Below are positions 4,297-62,593 of a stretch of DNA of 64,000 bases, piece by piece. Location: contig CAMWGV010000008.1 in the NCBI GenBank assembly GCA_947173945.1, positions 1-64,000 of the forward strand, given 5' to 3'. The notes below the pieces were generated by a model. The model was not told the origin of the DNA and ran no database searches. It saw only the letters and a list, made by a program, of their open reading frames with translations. Source of the stretch: an uncultured Lachnospiraceae bacterium (lineage in GTDB: Bacteria; Bacillota; Clostridia; Lachnospirales; Lachnospiraceae). Within the stretch, counting starts at the first letter, position 1. Each line of letters begins with the position of its first letter. Made by a program: the position numbers and the translations under genes.

Positions 4297-5271
4297 ATGA
4301 TTGAGGTAAAAAACATATGCAAATCATATAACGTAATTCAGAAGGGGGAAGGCTTCAGGGGTGCATTAAAAGGGCTGATTTCACGGGAAAGTGAAAAGGT
4401 ACAGGCTGTGAAAAACTTGAGCTTTCATATTCAACCGGGCGAGATAGTTGGCTTCATCGGACCAAATGGTGCAGGAAAAAGTACAACAATTAAGATGATG
4501 TCAGGTATACTGACACCAAGCAGTGGGGAAATATTAATCAACGGAAGAGATATACATAAGTACCGCAAACAGGTTGTACAGGATATCGGGGTGGTGTTCG
4601 GTCAGAGGTCACAGCTGGATTGGGACTTAAGACTGGGAGAGAGCTTTGAGCTGCTTCGCCATATATACAGGATTGATAAAGCAAAGTATGAGGAAACGCT
4701 GAACATCATGGACCAGATATTGGAAATCAAGCCACTGTTAAGTAAGCCGGTGCGTCAGATGTCATTAGGACAGCGGGTGAAAGGAGATCTGGTTGCAGCT
4801 ATGCTTCACGCACCATCCGTTTTGTTTTTGGATGAACCGACAATTGGGTTGGATGTAGGGGCTAAGTATTCACTGCGTAAGTTTGTAAAAGAAGTGAATG
4901 AGGAAAGAAATACGACGGTTATTTTAACTACCCATGATTTAGGAGATATAGAGCAACTTTGTGACAGAATTATTATAATTAACAATGGGGAACTGATAGA
5001 GGATGGCAATCTGGAGGAAATTGTTGACAGGATTGCACCTTATAAAACTCTGGTCGTGGAGTATTATGATGAAAAGGCTCCGGAACATGCACGATGCGAG
5101 CTGTTTTTTCATGAGGCAAATGTGGCGAAATACCGGTTTATGAAAAAGGATATTACAGCGGCGGCACTGATTCAGGCTTTGTCCGCTGAGGCACAAATTA
5201 AAGATGTATCCATAGAGGAAGCGGGAATTGATGATATTATTCGGATTGCATATGGACAACTTAAGGAGTAA
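4297..5271 (+). CDS. ABC transporter ATPase (COG4586-like)
   Basis: Nucleotide-binding subunit of the exporter. Walker A is at residues 55-63 (GPNGAGKST), a degenerate signature near 155-159 (MSLGQ instead of LSGGQ), Walker B near 174-181 (VLFLDEPT), and an H-loop TTHD follows. The degenerate signature and a C-terminal extension of about 80 residues are typical of the COG4586 group. GGAGG precedes the ATG. A 53-bp gap from the permease contains no obvious promoter, so the three genes likely form one unit. Substrate not predictable. Confidence 0.9.
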   Translation: MIEVKNICKSYNVIQKGEGFRGALKGLISRESEKVQAVKNLSFHIQPGEIVGFIGPNGAGKSTTIKMMSGILTPSSGEILINGRDIHKYRKQVVQDIGVVFGQRSQLDWDLRLGESFELLRHIYRIDKAKYEETLNIMDQILEIKPLLSKPVRQMSLGQRVKGDLVAAMLHAPSVLFLDEPTIGLDVGAKYSLRKFVKEVNEERNTTVILTTHDLGDIEQLCDRIIIINNGELIEDGNLEEIVDRIAPYKTLVVEYYDEKAPEHARCELFFHEANVAKYRFMKKDITAAALIQALSAEAQIKDVSIEEAGIDDIIRIAYGQLKE

Positions 5272-5313: not shown

Positions 5314-7104
5314 ATGGCAGAATCAATGAAGGGGTTGAAAAGAACCCACAGATGTACAGAGGTAAGCAATAAAAACGTGGGTGAAACCGTTACCGTAATG
5401 GGCTGGGTGCAAAAAAGCAGAAATAAAGGTGGAATTATATTTGTAGACCTCAGGGACAGAAGCGGTATACTTCAGGTTATATTTGAGGAAGCAAATGTAG
5501 GAGCAACAGGATTTGAAAAGGCGGAAAAACTCAGAAGCGAGTTTGTGGCTGCAATTACCGGAACTGTTTCAAAGCGTGAGGGAGCGGTCAATGAAAATCT
5601 TGCAACCGGTGATATTGAGATTATTGCGAAGGATATACGGATTCTTTCTGAGTCAGAAACACCTCCATTTCCTATAGAGGAAAACAGCAAAACAAAGGAG
5701 GAACTCAGACTTAAGTACAGATATCTGGATTTAAGGCGTCCGGATTTACAAAGCAATTTGATAATGAGAAGTAAGGTTACTACACTTACAAGGGCATTTC
5801 TTGCGGATGAGGGATTTATAGAAATAGAGACACCTACACTTTGTAAATCAACTCCTGAGGGAGCAAGAGATTACCTTGTGCCAAGCAGGGTTCATCCAGG
5901 TAACTTTTACGCACTTCCACAATCGCCTCAGATTTACAAGCAGCTTCTTATGTGCTCCGGATATGACAGGTATTTCCAGATAGCAAGGTGTTATCGTGAT
6001 GAGGATCTTCGTGCTGACAGACAGCCGGAGTTTACCCAGATAGACATGGAGCTTTCATTTGTGGATGTTGATGATGTTATAGATGTAAATGAGAGGCTTC
6101 TTGCAAAGCTCTTCAAGGAGGTAATCGGTGTTGATATTGCACTTCCTATACAGCGTATGACATACAGGGAGGCTATGGAGCGCTTTGGCTCAGACAAGCC
6201 TGATTTGAGATTTGGTATGGAGCTTAAGGACATAACTGACATAGTGAGAAACTGTGAGTTTGGTGTGTTCAAGGGAGCAGTCGATGCAGGTGGAAGCGTC
6301 CGTGGTATAAATGCAAAGGGACAGGGTGCAATGCCCCGTAAGAAAATAGATGCTTTAGTTGATTTTGTAAAAGGATATGGAGCAAAGGGGCTTGCATACA
6401 TTGCAATTGGAGAGGATAACACGATTAAATCTTCTTTTGCAAAGTTTATGAAAGACGAGGAGATGGATGCAATCATAAAGGCTATGGAAGGTGAGGCAGG
6501 AGATTTACTTCTTTTTGCTGCCGACAAGACAAAGCTTGTTTACGATGTGCTTGGTGCTTTAAGGCTTGAAATAGCTGAAAATCTTGGCTTGTTAGACAAG
6601 AACGAATACAGGTTTGTATGGATTACGGAGTTCCCGCTTCTTGAGTGGAATGAGGATTTAAACAGATATCAGGCAATGCACCATCCGTTTACAATGCCAA
6701 TGGAGGAAGACCTTCCGTATATAGACAGTGACCCGGGAAGGGTACGTGCAAAGGCATATGATATTGTACTGAATGGAACAGAGTTAGGTGGTGGAAGTGT
6801 CCGTATACATCAAAATGATGTGCAGGAAAAGATGTTTGAGGCACTGGGCTTCGACAAGGAGACGGCATACGACCAATTTGGATTCCTGCTCAATGCATTT
6901 AAGTATGGTGTACCGCCTCATGCAGGACTGGCATATGGACTTGACCGTCTCATAATGCTTATGGCTAAGGAGGATTCAATTCGTGATGTTATTGCATTCC
7001 CTAAGGTGAAGGATGCATCCTGCCTTATGAGTGATGCACCGAATGTAGTAGACCCGAAACAGCTTGAAGAGCTTGGAGTGGCGATTGCAACCGCCCAACA
7101 GTAA
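5314..7104 (+). CDS. aspS: Aspartyl-tRNA synthetase
   Basis: Class II synthetase that charges tRNA-Asp; 596 aa, the usual bacterial-type length with the GAD insertion. It has an N-terminal OB fold (about residues 20-105), RYLDLRRP near 140, motif 2 near 221-242 (RCYRDEDLRADRQPEFTQ), and motif 3 near 538-550 (GLAYGLDRL). The ATG follows TAGGAGG. Whether it is discriminating or also charges tRNA-Asn cannot be told from sequence alone. The gene ends directly at the left border of the inverted-repeat element. Confidence 0.96.
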   Translation: MAESMKGLKRTHRCTEVSNKNVGETVTVMGWVQKSRNKGGIIFVDLRDRSGILQVIFEEANVGATGFEKAEKLRSEFVAAITGTVSKREGAVNENLATGDIEIIAKDIRILSESETPPFPIEENSKTKEELRLKYRYLDLRRPDLQSNLIMRSKVTTLTRAFLADEGFIEIETPTLCKSTPEGARDYLVPSRVHPGNFYALPQSPQIYKQLLMCSGYDRYFQIARCYRDEDLRADRQPEFTQIDMELSFVDVDDVIDVNERLLAKLFKEVIGVDIALPIQRMTYREAMERFGSDKPDLRFGMELKDITDIVRNCEFGVFKGAVDAGGSVRGINAKGQGAMPRKKIDALVDFVKGYGAKGLAYIAIGEDNTIKSSFAKFMKDEEMDAIIKAMEGEAGDLLLFAADKTKLVYDVLGALRLEIAENLGLLDKNEYRFVWITEFPLLEWNEDLNRYQAMHHPFTMPMEEDLPYIDSDPGRVRAKAYDIVLNGTELGGGSVRIHQNDVQEKMFEALGFDKETAYDQFGFLLNAFKYGVPPHAGLAYGLDRLIMLMAKEDSIRDVIAFPKVKDASCLMSDAPNVVDPKQLEELGVAIATAQQ

Positions 7105-7105
7105 A

Positions 7106-7563
7106 CAGCGGGCAGTATTCCATGTCAGGACAGCACAGACACACGGAATCCCCAATTAAAAATGTTAGGATTTGAGTGGCTGTTTTTGCTTATATACAGA
7201 TAGTATGAAAACCGTTTGAAGACGTCGGTACTTGAATTGCCGGCATGGGGATGGGCTATACAGCCATACACAAAACATGCTTTCGCTCGTCTCAGACGTA
7301 GCGGTACTAAAAATTGCCAGTTTAAGGGACTCCCATATAAGGATTCTTTAGACTGGCAATTTAAGTACCGACGTCTTCAAACGGTTTTGTGTATGGCTGT
7401 ATAGCCCATCCCCATGCCGGCAATTCTTAGTACCGTTACGTCTGAGACGAGCGAAAGCGTGTTTTCATACTATCTGTATATAAGCAAAGGCAGCCACTTA
7501 TAGTAACACGCTTTGGGGATTCCGTGTGTCTGTGCTGTCCTGACATGGGATGCTGCCCCACTG
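7106..7563. repeat. Complex nested inverted-repeat element between convergent genes
   Basis: The whole gap between aspS and the kinase gene is made of long inverted repeats. Outer arms: 7106-7153 with 7515-7563 (imperfect). Second pair: 7176-7212 with 7461-7497 (37 nt, 2 mismatches). Inner pairs: 7208-7241 with 7355-7388 (34 nt, 1 mismatch), 7234-7276 with 7384-7426 (43 nt, perfect), and 7272-7318 with 7419-7465 (47 nt, 3 mismatches). A small central pair is 7313-7326 with 7347-7360. The three inner pairs run in the order a-b-c then a'-b'-c', not c'-b'-a', so they cross instead of nesting. Segments a and c resemble each other. No protein gene is credible here. It may act as a bidirectional terminator, be a MITE-like element, or encode a structured RNA. 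Confidence 0.9.
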
Positions 7564-7565
7564 TA

Positions 7566-9041
7566 TTATAGGTCGTAGCTCGTAAGCTTTGCTGTTTCAC
7601 CGGGACGCGGTTCCGGCTTGTAAATTTCAGGAGTTATTTTCTTTAAGGAGAAGGTAAATTCACTTCCTACACCTTCGGTGCTGACCACGTTTATATTTTC
7701 ATTGTGTGCCTTTACGATTTCTCTTGTTATGGCAAGTCCAAGACCGGTGCCCTGTTTGTCACGTCCACGGGAAGCATCTGCCTTGTAAAAACGAACCCAT
7801 ACCTTATTGAGGGAATCACTTGGAATTCCACAACCCTCATCCTTGACGGAAACGAATATTTTATCTCTCTTTTCCTCCAGTGTAATGTAAATATTTTTAT
7901 CATTCGGTGTAAACTTAATTGCATTGTCCAATAGATTGTATATAACCTGTTCAATTTTTGTTTTGTCAGCATTTACCGTAGTGATTTCACAGTGGTTGTT
8001 AAGTATGAGGGAAATATTTTTTTCCTGACATTTGCCTTCAAATGTGTTCATTGCATCTCTTACAAGATCAATAATGTCGAAGTCCTTTGTAATGAGCCAC
8101 AATCCATAGGAGTCGTAGTTGTTAAGCTCAAGAAGTCCTGTTGTAAGCTTGGTAAGACGCTGTGTCTCATTGAGGACGATACTAAGGTACTTGTCCTGCT
8201 TTTCCGGTGGTATCGTGCCATCCTGAATCGCTTCAATATAGCCTTTTATTGACGTGAGAGGAGACCTGAAATCATGTGATATGTTGGAGATGAATTCACG
8301 TCTGTATTCGTCAAGCTTTGAAAGCTCAGAAGCCATGTATTCAAGTGTTACTGCTAACTGTCCGATTTCATCATTTGATGTAATGTCCATTTTTGTCTCA
8401 AAATTTCCGGTAGAGTATTCCTCCGCTACGGAGTTGATTTTTTTGATAGGTCTCATTATTTTTCCGGATATGAGAGCAAGCAGCACAAAGGATATGATTA
8501 CAAGAAGTAGAAACGGAATGTATATAACTTGAAGCATGTCTCTTTGGACGCTTCTGATCTGTGAAACCGTGGAATGTATAAAAATCATTCCGTTTGGTTT
8601 ACCGAGGGTTTCAATCGGCATGGTAACGGTAATTACCTCGTCACTGAAAAGACCATAAAAATCACCCGTAAGAGTCTGTCCTGTAGTGATATCAAAATTC
8701 TGATCCAAAAGAAATATGTTTGCCGGAACTTCAATATTTTCTGCTGTGCTTGAGGAAACAATGACAATACCTTTATCATCAATGACCCAGATACTTGCAT
8801 TCAGTCTGTCGCTGTAGTATTCCAAACTCTTTTTGGTATATTCAAGTGTGTAGGTGCCACGCACAAAATTGGATATGGTCTGCTCGCCTATAAGGTATGC
8901 TTCATTTGTCAGTACCTCTGATTTTTCAGCAACCAATGCCTTTTTTGTAGCATAGGAGGAGTAAAATATAAGTACGGTAAATGTAGCCAGAAATATAAAT
9001 AGGAAGCTCAAAAAAATTCTATCAAACAGTGAATGTTTCAT
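7566..9041 (-). CDS. Membrane sensor histidine kinase
   Basis: Two-component sensor of 491 aa. It has a transmembrane segment near residues 9-31, an extracellular sensor region (about 32-170), a second transmembrane segment near 171-192, a HAMP linker (about 192-245), a HisKA domain with phospho-accepting His256 (SHDFRSPLTS), and a HATPase domain with N box (VIYNLLDNAIKF) and GTGLGLAI. It begins 1 base after the stop of the response regulator, with GAGGTGAG as ribosome site, so the two are translationally coupled. The layout resembles VicK/PhoR-type kinases, but the signal cannot be named. Its stop codon abuts the inverted-repeat element. Confidence 0.93.
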   Translation of the reverse strand: MKHSLFDRIFLSFLFIFLATFTVLIFYSSYATKKALVAEKSEVLTNEAYLIGEQTISNFVRGTYTLEYTKKSLEYYSDRLNASIWVIDDKGIVIVSSSTAENIEVPANIFLLDQNFDITTGQTLTGDFYGLFSDEVITVTMPIETLGKPNGMIFIHSTVSQIRSVQRDMLQVIYIPFLLLVIISFVLLALISGKIMRPIKKINSVAEEYSTGNFETKMDITSNDEIGQLAVTLEYMASELSKLDEYRREFISNISHDFRSPLTSIKGYIEAIQDGTIPPEKQDKYLSIVLNETQRLTKLTTGLLELNNYDSYGLWLITKDFDIIDLVRDAMNTFEGKCQEKNISLILNNHCEITTVNADKTKIEQVIYNLLDNAIKFTPNDKNIYITLEEKRDKIFVSVKDEGCGIPSDSLNKVWVRFYKADASRGRDKQGTGLGLAITREIVKAHNENINVVSTEGVGSEFTFSLKKITPEIYKPEPRPGETAKLTSYDL

Positions 9042-30561: not shown

Positions 30562-31782
30562 ATGGGTGATATAGATATAAAAGCTGTTTTAAAAAATGAA
30601 ATACAGGAAAAACCCTATAGAATTGTCGTTAGCAACAGGCAGGAAAAAAGTTATAAGTATAAAAAGCTGGATGTTAGATACATAAAATCCGGTGAAAAGG
30701 ATATGTACCAGATAACGTCATATACAGACAGACAGGCTTTTCAGGAAAATGTGCAACCAGACAGTGTTACGGATTACATAGCAGATATATTTCCGGACAA
30801 ATTTAAGCAGATAAATATTTACTTTAAAAACAGGGAAAAGAGCTATAAGCAGTCAAAGAGCGGAAAACTGCTACAGCATGAAAATAAACTTATGGATGCT
30901 GAAAAGCAAATGTATCCACAGCATAACAGGACGAAAAATTACATATTTCAAGAGGGGATGAGTATACCGCCTCTGATAGACATGGGTGTATTTACGAAGG
31001 ACGGAAAGGTCGTAAGTTCCATGTACGATAAGTTTAAGCAGATAAACCGATTTGTTGAGATTGTTGATGATGTAGTCAGACACAATCCAAATGAGGAGCT
31101 TAACATTATTGATTTTGGTTGCGGAAAATCCTACCTCACGTTTATATTGTACTACTATTTAGTTTATATAAAACATATAAAAGCGAATATTACCGGACTT
31201 GACCTTAAGGCGGATGTTATAAAAAAATGCAATGATGCATCAAGGAAATATGGATATAAAGGACTGCATTTTCAGGTTGGAGATATACAGAATTTCGATA
31301 CGAAAATGAAAGTGGACATGGTTGTTACGCTTCATGCCTGTGACACTGCAACGGATTATGCACTTTCAAATGCTGTCTGCTGGAATGCAAAATATATATT
31401 GTCAGTTCCATGCTGTCAGCATGAGGTAAACGGACAGATTGACTGTGAAGAGCTTTCACCGATGATGAAGCATGGACTTATTAAGGAGAGAATGTCGGCA
31501 CTTGCCACAGATGCGGTAAGGGGTTCCATGCTGGAATTTTGTGGATACAAAACCCAGCTTATGGAATTTGTTGATATGGCACACTCACCTAAAAATATCC
31601 TCATAAGGGCGGTGAAGAGTAATATACCGAAGAAAAAGAAAGAAAAAGCTAAGTCTGATGTGGAGCTTATGTGTCAGACTTTAAAAATAAAACCCACAAT
31701 CTATCAACTGTTAAAGGATTATGGAATTAAGGAGAAAGAAACATCAGTAAATAAAGAGGAGAAGGATTATGAGAAACAATAA
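30562..31782 (+). CDS. SAM-dependent methyltransferase (Methyltransf_32-like)
   Basis: 406 aa. An N-terminal region of about 150 residues is rich in basic and Tyr residues. The Rossmann core has IIDFGCGKSYLTFILYYY (SAM motif I) and ITGLDLKAD, followed by VTLHACDTATD and VPCCQHE, which are typical of PF13679 proteins. This group is linked to RNA or glutathione-related methylation in various organisms, but the bacterial members are uncharacterised. ATG 30562 with GTGGAG at 6-base spacing is chosen over the GTG at 30550. The 3' end overlaps the next gene by 14 bases. Confidence 0.8.
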   Translation: MGDIDIKAVLKNEIQEKPYRIVVSNRQEKSYKYKKLDVRYIKSGEKDMYQITSYTDRQAFQENVQPDSVTDYIADIFPDKFKQINIYFKNREKSYKQSKSGKLLQHENKLMDAEKQMYPQHNRTKNYIFQEGMSIPPLIDMGVFTKDGKVVSSMYDKFKQINRFVEIVDDVVRHNPNEELNIIDFGCGKSYLTFILYYYLVYIKHIKANITGLDLKADVIKKCNDASRKYGYKGLHFQVGDIQNFDTKMKVDMVVTLHACDTATDYALSNAVCWNAKYILSVPCCQHEVNGQIDCEELSPMMKHGLIKERMSALATDAVRGSMLEFCGYKTQLMEFVDMAHSPKNILIRAVKSNIPKKKKEKAKSDVELMCQTLKIKPTIYQLLKDYGIKEKETSVNKEEKDYEKQ

Positions 31783-40927: not shown

Positions 40928-40938
40928 GATATAAAGGG

Positions 40939-40976
40939 GGCTGTTGCACTATAGTGCAGCAGCCTTCTTTGTTTTT
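40939..40976 (+). terminator. Terminator of the adhesin transcript
   Basis: GGCTGTTGCAC (40939-40949) pairs with GTGCAGCAGCC (40954-40964), followed by TTCTTTGTTTTT. The arm sequence resembles the hairpins after secY and rplQ. Confidence 0.9.
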
Positions 40977-41047: not shown

Positions 41048-41302
41048 TGCTGTGACATTGATAGCGTGGAAACGAAGGTTGCTGCGTATGTGAGCATAGG
41101 CAGGTTATTTCGCGGAGCGAATGTCAATTAAAGATAACTGGCGACAAGTCACTGTACTTAATACCATCCGCAGGTTATTACCAAAGAGGCGGAGATGACG
41201 TGTGAAGGATTGGAATGACAAAAAACATGACACACACGGGAAAGTTGTACAGTCACCACTTGTCGTACTACTATTAAGTGCGAAAAGGAGGCGGCTTTTT
41301 TT
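41048..41302 (+). promoter_or_regulatory. Structured 5' leader of rpsJ (candidate ribosomal-protein autoregulatory element)
   Basis: About 255 nt of leader with no open frame. A long closing stem joins 41143-41157 with 41247-41264 (GACAAGT...CACTGTAC against GTACAGTCAC...ACTTGTC, with a 3-nt bulge). Smaller pairings lie inside (CCGC with GCGG; CGTGTG with CACACG). The stem ends about 25 nt before the GGAGG site of rpsJ. Feedback by an operon-encoded ribosomal protein is inferred from position and from known leaders of this operon in other bacteria. Confidence 0.65.
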
Positions 41303-62303: not shown

Positions 62304-62377
62304 GCGGTTGTAGCTCAGCTGGATAGAGCACTTGGCTACGGACCAAGGTGTCGGGAGTTCGAATCTTCTCAGCCGCG
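62304..62377 (+). tRNA. tRNA-Arg (anticodon ACG)
   Basis: Full cloverleaf: acceptor GCGGTTG pairs with CAGCCGC (one G-T), D arm AGCTCAGCTGGATAGAGC, anticodon stem CTTGG/CCAAG with loop CTACGGA, T loop TTCGAAT. The ACG anticodon is normally deaminated to ICG and reads CGU/CGC/CGA. The 3' CCA is not encoded. Confidence 0.95.
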
Positions 62378-62489: not shown

Positions 62490-62561
62490 GCTGGGCTACA
62501 AGGATTCGAACCTTGAAATGCTGGAGTCAGAGTCCAGTGCCTTACCATTTGGCGATAGCCC
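62490..62561 (-). tRNA. tRNA-Gln (anticodon CTG)
   Basis: Read on the minus strand: acceptor TGGGCTA pairs with TAGCCCA, anticodon stem CTGGA/TCCAG with loop CTCTGAC (anticodon CTG), T arm CAAGG-TTCGAAT-CCTTG. The start with a U1-A72 pair is typical of bacterial tRNA-Gln. CCA is not encoded. Confidence 0.94.
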
Positions 62562-62593
62562 ATTAGAATGATTTATGTATCATCCAAAAACAG

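Follow-up and report, generated by a model that had tools for sequence, protein, structure and literature searches.

On balance we favour a reading in which the gap between aspS and a sensor histidine kinase gene in the window (the whole 64,000-nt stretch of Lachnospiraceae DNA that was analysed) is filled by a concentric inverted dimer of a dispersed Lachnospiraceae palindromic repeat, one that spreads as a mobile hairpin served in trans and is tolerated at gene ends.

The two flanking genes are convergent, and the gap is a single palindrome (7105–7564) that adjoins the aspS stop codon (7104) and leaves one base (7565) before the kinase stop codon (7566). Five inverted-repeat pairs, some nested and some crossed, were described here in the first-pass annotation, and a repeat search of the window recovered all of them in place: 46 nt, 96% (7110–7155/7513–7558); 38 nt, 95% (7175–7212/7461–7498); 43 nt, 100% (7234–7276/7384–7426); 49 nt, 84% (7193–7241/7355–7403); and 62 nt, 84% (7257–7318/7419–7480). 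Along the locus the segments run outer, outer, a-b-c, a'-b'-c', outer', outer'. Folded as a single strand, 7105–7565 reaches a minimum free energy of −323.7 kcal/mol, compared to −128.9±6.4 kcal/mol for 100 shuffled sequences (z=−30; 0/100 as low). The predicted fold is a continuous nested hairpin (7105–7564) that is interrupted by bulges and internal loops and carries two GC-loop-GC mini-hairpins; it has zero crossing pairs, as drawn by a program that cannot represent pseudoknots. The parts of the locus and its neighbours are as follows.

5314–7104, plus strand: aspS (aspartyl-tRNA synthetase), convergent neighbour, named in the first-pass annotation from the sequence alone
7105–7155, unstranded: outermost stem, left arm, pairing with 7513–7564; directly 3' of the aspS stop codon
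7175–7207, unstranded: left arm of the S0 stem, external to the outer E; partner 7466–7498
7208–7233, plus strand: block a, the 5' end of the outer E (block scan, locus L001 1604–1629; covariance model)
7234–7271, unstranded: left arm of the S1 stem (b), lying between the outer and the inner E; partner 7389–7426, zero mismatches
7272–7310, minus strand: block c, the 3' end of the inner, reverse-oriented E, with GCGAAAGC on the minus strand at 7279–7286
7311–7362, unstranded: innermost hairpin L and loop, a stem of the AATTGCC..GGCAATT type
7363–7388, minus strand: block a', the 5' end of the inner, reverse-oriented E (block scan, covariance model)
7389–7426, unstranded: S1 stem b', right arm, pairing with 7234–7271
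7427–7465, plus strand: block c', the 3' end of the outer E, with the GCGAAAGC mini-hairpin at 7451–7458
7466–7498, unstranded: S0 stem, right arm, pairing with 7175–7207
7513–7564, unstranded: outermost stem, right arm, one base (7565) short of the kinase stop codon
7566–9041, minus strand: sensor histidine kinase, convergent neighbour, likewise named in the first-pass annotation

Neither chance nor an assembly artefact, the outcome that the first-pass annotation saw as fatal to its description, is a credible source of these repeats: no supporting point was found, no shuffle folds as stably, and an artefact is ruled out because the identical architecture recurs in other copies in the host genome and in the assemblies of other species. 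A search of the 460 bp against the host and related genomes returned many copies, in which the number of layers varies at orthologous sites.

The many copies found by DNA search in the host genome (2.84 Mb, 108 contigs) share a recurring 258-bp core corresponding to window 7208–7465. Scanning of the copies with two blocks, a (AAAACCGTTTGAAGACG...) and c (AAAACACGCTTTCGC...), showed that the conserved core, hereafter E, spans a to c', and that c to a' is the reverse complement of E nested inside it. The a-b-c/a'-b'-c' order arises because E encloses its own reverse complement, and therefore no pseudoknot is required. A covariance model matches the outer E at 7202–7471 on the plus strand (68.7 bits, with a 176-base insert) and the inner E at 7266–7395 on the minus strand (93.2 bits), the latter being one of the 31 sequences on which the model was trained.

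Near-perfect matching of the crossing pairs had been taken as a sign of recent copying or selection. Most of that argument falls away, as each of a/a' and c/c' is a conserved block present twice, with an identity within a copy that barely exceeds that between copies. Among 43 doubles (two-layer copies), within-copy identity of the S1 arms is 93.3% and between-copy identity 63.5% (maximum of 300 permutations, 68.5%), compared to 95.1% and 94.3% for the a/a' blocks (1/300 permutations as high) and 91.9% and 87.3% for the c/c' blocks (0/300). With permutation confined to single genomes, the a/a' excess almost disappears (0.964 vs 0.956 in the host, 61/2000 as high; 0.946 vs 0.949 in a second genome, 2000/2000), and a small c/c' excess stays (host 0.906 vs 0.872, 0/2000; second genome 0.925 vs 0.903, 2/2000). 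The nested stems therefore covary strongly, and the crossing match mainly reflects family conservation plus a small c/c' residue, which could also be yielded by co-descent of the two layers or by occasional conversion. A conformational switch with a pseudoknot built from the crossing pairs (a/a', b/b' and c/c'), another of the earlier proposals, is very improbable on these figures: the crossing segments are 84–100% complementary in the window and c/c' does beat its permutations (a/a' weakly), but the excess is small beside that of the nested arms, co-descent of two layers accounts for it, and nearly the whole sequence is consumed by the nested fold.

E measures ~85–120 bp without inserts and sits at the tip of long, fast-changing, self-complementary arms. 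Its predicted fold, supported by covariation, is a three-way junction at which a base stem, an inner stem and, on its 3' side, a GNRA mini-hairpin meet. The inner stem carries a U.U mismatch in 31/31 aligned sequences as well as a two-base YU bulge, and the mini-hairpin has two pairs and a loop that fits GNRA in 30/31 (GAAA, GAGA, GGGA, GGAA, GCAA). As DNA, d(GCGAAAGC) is an unusually stable mini-hairpin. Changes on both sides were seen in 14 of 23 pairs (6.8±1.3 in shuffles), and 97.3% of alignment cells are paired vs 86.6% in slid controls, a comparison flattered by the fact that the structure was derived from the same 31 sequences.

With strict filters, the E model matches at least 66 of 150 genomes of the host family Lachnospiraceae, taken one per genus, with ≥20 matches in 11 of the 66 matched genomes (up to 23 candidates scored per genome), and at least 7 of 291 genomes across the class (12 candidates per genome), all seven belonging to the host family. 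As few candidates were scored and the filters were strict, both presence and copy counts are lower bounds. A structured repeat in at least 66 of 150 genera of a major gut family has no match in Rfam 15 at the gathering threshold (lowest E-value at the locus, 2; ten loci without a match at E≤0.1), and no description of it was found in a literature search of titles and abstract openings. Phages gave no match to the element; a viral contig with a lone 17-mer match was rejected as E after its sequence failed to fold as such. Plasmid searches by BLAST returned only 37–38 base matches, in two Lachnospira eligens records. The E model matches a 5-kb stretch of [Eubacterium] eligens plasmid NC_012780.1, a named megaplasmid, at 2062–2212, 2421–2545 and 4381–4505 of that stretch (L160); two of the three matches are equal in score and length, and one of them trained the model.

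In the host genome 19 doubles, among them the window copy, read a c a' c', and one triple reads a c a c' a' c'; in addition there are six singles of 85 bp, one of 117 bp, one diverged single and fragments. An opposite-strand nested E pair was found by the covariance model in 20/20 multi-layer host loci, some of which had trained the model, the triple's third layer not being among the matches listed. Together with loci from other genomes, 112 distinct clusters comprise 44 singles, 43 doubles, 3 triples and 22 partial copies. Nesting steps alternate in orientation in 50/50 cases; the steps are not independent, and judging by distinct stems our guess is that they go back to about five founding events. 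The S1 base resembles the innermost hairpin, lying within two mismatches of RARTTGCC in 30/43 doubles (~0.5 expected from shuffles), as expected if a unit had entered that loop. Locus L046 (1355–1539, genome G005) holds a single E whose loop contains apparently only the c half of a reverse-oriented second E, i.e. a partial nesting.

We propose that the unit, non-coding and hairpin-forming, would spread as a mobile element with the help of a putative trans-acting enzyme, its copies being tolerated at gene ends in the manner of REP/BIME elements. A layer would be added when a unit inserts into the loop at the tip of another unit's hairpin, and reverse nesting would survive since a direct nesting would yield direct repeats, which slippage tends to delete. 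Template switching during replication may let the arms diverge and yet stay complementary, whether or not the hairpin is also under selection.

Mobility is suggested by the presence of copies at unrelated places and by the composite pairs of genome G121. There, side-by-side inverted E pairs, 163–304 bases apart, were seen in 7/8 fetched loci, and 6/7 model matches in 400 kb sit in such pairs; eight aligned pairs read as one composite unit with two arm types, one of each, present in both orientations. These inverted pairs of two arm types (L240–L247, L305 and L312) resemble BIME hetero-dimers. Genome G160 has nine E copies that are 99% identical, their arms being 69% identical between copies and 81% within.

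Other observations count against a mobile unit. Bare hairpins of 35–70 bp without E account for 10/36 arm pairs, and the outer ends common to many copies, of the GGGGCTGTCGCACTAAG type, are absent from the window copy. Inspection of 36 arm pairs by eye gave no convincing target-site duplication, the palindrome often continuing into the flanks; beside L051 there is a possible repeat of 5 bases (TCACA). The host genome has no match to DDE_Tnp_1 (PF01609), DDE_Tnp_1_6 (PF13751) or Y1_Tnp (PF01797); of 14 other genomes tried, 5 have a PF01797 match and 9 have none. Reading of the ORFs at two G052 loci revealed no obvious transposase. Of the three guesses in the first-pass annotation, a MITE-like element fits best, in that E is a non-coding palindrome with many copies that differ at orthologous sites; no target duplication was found, however, nor a match to the three transposase families searched in the host. 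Elsewhere in the window, ~90 bases upstream of an S10-Clostridia leader (41059–41147), there is a short bare hairpin at 40933–40970 (AAAGGGGGCTGTTGCACTATAG..CTATAGTGCAGCAGCCTTCTTT) that resembles the outer ends seen on many copies of the family.

A bolder form of our proposal, which we put forward tentatively and think rather doubtful as it stands, is that E represents a new class of mobile hairpin found in much of Lachnospiraceae: a single-strand three-way junction with a GNRA mini-hairpin that is recognised by a trans-acting enzyme and inserts into hairpin tips, its own included, building Russian-doll palindromes of alternating orientation with arms kept by template switching.

Comparison of orthologous sites shows gain or loss of layers on the time scale of species. 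At the site downstream of aspS (27 loci compared, one unparsed and one ending at a contig edge), the host (G000) has two layers, G021 (aspS 96% identical) one truncated E and G028 (aspS 95% identical) a bare GGGGCTTGTC hairpin; G034 has three layers (L165) and G036 two (L166), with outer stems common to both, and this last site would be a good place for timing layer gain or loss. Long hairpins without E are seen downstream of aspS in G001 (L164) and G030 (L176); in their loops are short stretches similar to block a' or to the base of E, and these hairpins are possibly decayed elements. Site A carries a double, a single or a bare hairpin depending on the species. At site B there is a double in G000 and the core is absent from G021 and G028, the outer arm being apparently kept in G028; loss of the core in the species without it may be as likely as gain in G000. 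Five species of the same genus carry an E between aspS and mutS2 (one copy cut by a contig end), and G023 and G024 have none there. In four of these species E is 87–94% identical, left arms are 70–78% identical between species, and arms are 74–93% identical within copies. Conservation of E over many genera and its recurrence between aspS and mutS2 are compatible with a host function no less than with a selfish one. The host genome has a second aspS-like gene at 31268–32980 of contig C14, whose identity to the window aspS is 41% and which has a stop inside the match; such second aspS-like matches of 40–43% occur in many genomes of the genus.

Such a host function could be that of an RNA hairpin acting at 3' ends, as a terminator, 3' protector or processing site, with copies placed at many gene ends, which we consider rather unlikely as the overall explanation. 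Under this view the reverse-oriented double supplies each of two convergent transcripts with one correctly oriented E. Gene context was called by a crude ORF rule, with 23/112 clusters dropped for short flanks or lack of a gene call; of 87 intergenic contexts called, 44 were convergent, 41 tandem and 2 divergent, and two more elements lay inside ORFs. Convergent gaps hold 29 of 39 called doubles (8 tandem, 2 divergent) and 10 of 35 called singles, compared to 89 convergent gaps among 359 controls, a set that also counts the gaps with elements. The distance from an element to a stop codon is usually tens of bases, and the nearly invariant GNRA loop, the strong covariation and the orthologous presence in several species also agree with an RNA. 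Against it, the 25 tandem singles among same-genus and related loci comprise 12 sense and 13 antisense copies, and the 35 contexts called in other genera (after 5/40 loci were dropped) comprise 7 tandem sense, 15 tandem antisense, 8 convergent and 5 divergent. The S1 arms are equally balanced, with 1425 Watson-Crick, 26 G.T, 26 A.C and 15 other cells, and show no wobble bias of one strand. Mismatch cells in S0 number 16 G.T and 21 A.C in multi-layer copies and 38 and 19 in singles, and those of the inner stem 63 and 34 in doubles and 10 and 6 in singles; we take the G.T excesses to come from related copies and set them aside, although they do not speak against an RNA. A strand-specific RNA at most copies was rejected on the lack of sense preference and the equality of G.T and A.C in S1.

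The bidirectional terminator suggested in the first-pass annotation is unproven as a reading: doubles are biased towards convergent genes, but tandem singles have no sense preference and T-tracts lie at control level. T-tracts at arm ends were found in 15/85 vs 16/81 controls in one test and 38 vs 36 of 128 in a second, the two tests taking 85 and 64 of the 112 clusters. An intrinsic terminator, i.e. a GC hairpin followed by a T-tract, was rejected, as T counts equal those of controls and window 6900–7800 holds no terminator match. Two convergent tRNA genes (Rfam RF00005) are located elsewhere in the window, at 62304–62377 and 62491–62562.

BIMEs act between converging genes as DNA-level supercoiling or protein-binding sites, or as cruciforms. 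A DNA-level chromosomal site of this kind, i.e. a cruciform or a supercoiling/protein-binding element between converging genes, would suit the absence of orientation preference, the gene-end location, the bias of doubles to convergent gaps, the equal numbers of G.T and A.C mismatches in S1 and the very stable hairpin. We nonetheless regard it as unlikely, as no binding partner is known and 84 of the 150 sampled Lachnospiraceae genera gave no match under the strict filters.

Whichever reading holds, concentric growth, alternation and covarying arms make the element well suited, as a natural system, to the question of how very long palindromes are tolerated and copied in bacteria. The element also bears on how hairpin arms stay complementary and on whether hairpin tips are insertion targets.

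Among known hairpin systems, integron attC sites have core sites and extrahelical bases and are recombined by the integron integrase. With MITEs, the E family shares its non-coding nature, inverted arms, multiple copies, many of them with shared outer ends of the above type, and the absence of its core at some orthologous sites; it differs from them in having no convincing target-site duplication and no related transposase among the families searched in the host, in the window copy without the shared ends, and in arms that are hypervariable yet complementary. REPs are 20–40 bp palindromes with an unpaired GTAG or CGTC tag and an associated RAYT (Y1) transposase, according to PMC3733652, the text of which, by word search, makes no mention of Firmicutes, Clostridi or Lachno. 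As described there, REP/BIME elements are numerous intergenic palindromes at gene 3' ends, between both convergent and tandem pairs; the E family shows the same context, less cleanly in other genera, and E likewise forms inverted dimers, nested and, in other genera, also side by side. Unlike REPs, however, E is ~85–120 bp long, its dimers are concentric, it lacks the unpaired GTAG/CGTC tag (its CGTC sits in a paired stem, alignment columns 112–115), and no Y1 transposase domain was found in the host and 9/14 other genomes. IS elements use REP palindromes as insertion targets (PMC1525189); this is comparable to the insertion of one unit into another's hairpin that we infer, except that the inserted unit here is the palindrome itself and is gene-free. 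In RNA genes, template switching keeps stem arms complementary through multi-base changes, as stated in PMC8794818; E arms likewise stay complementary while changing, although that work concerns RNA genes and for E arms the mechanism is conjectural. We read the element as a REP/BIME- or MITE-like palindromic repeat that is probably mobilised in trans and nests at its own hairpin tip.
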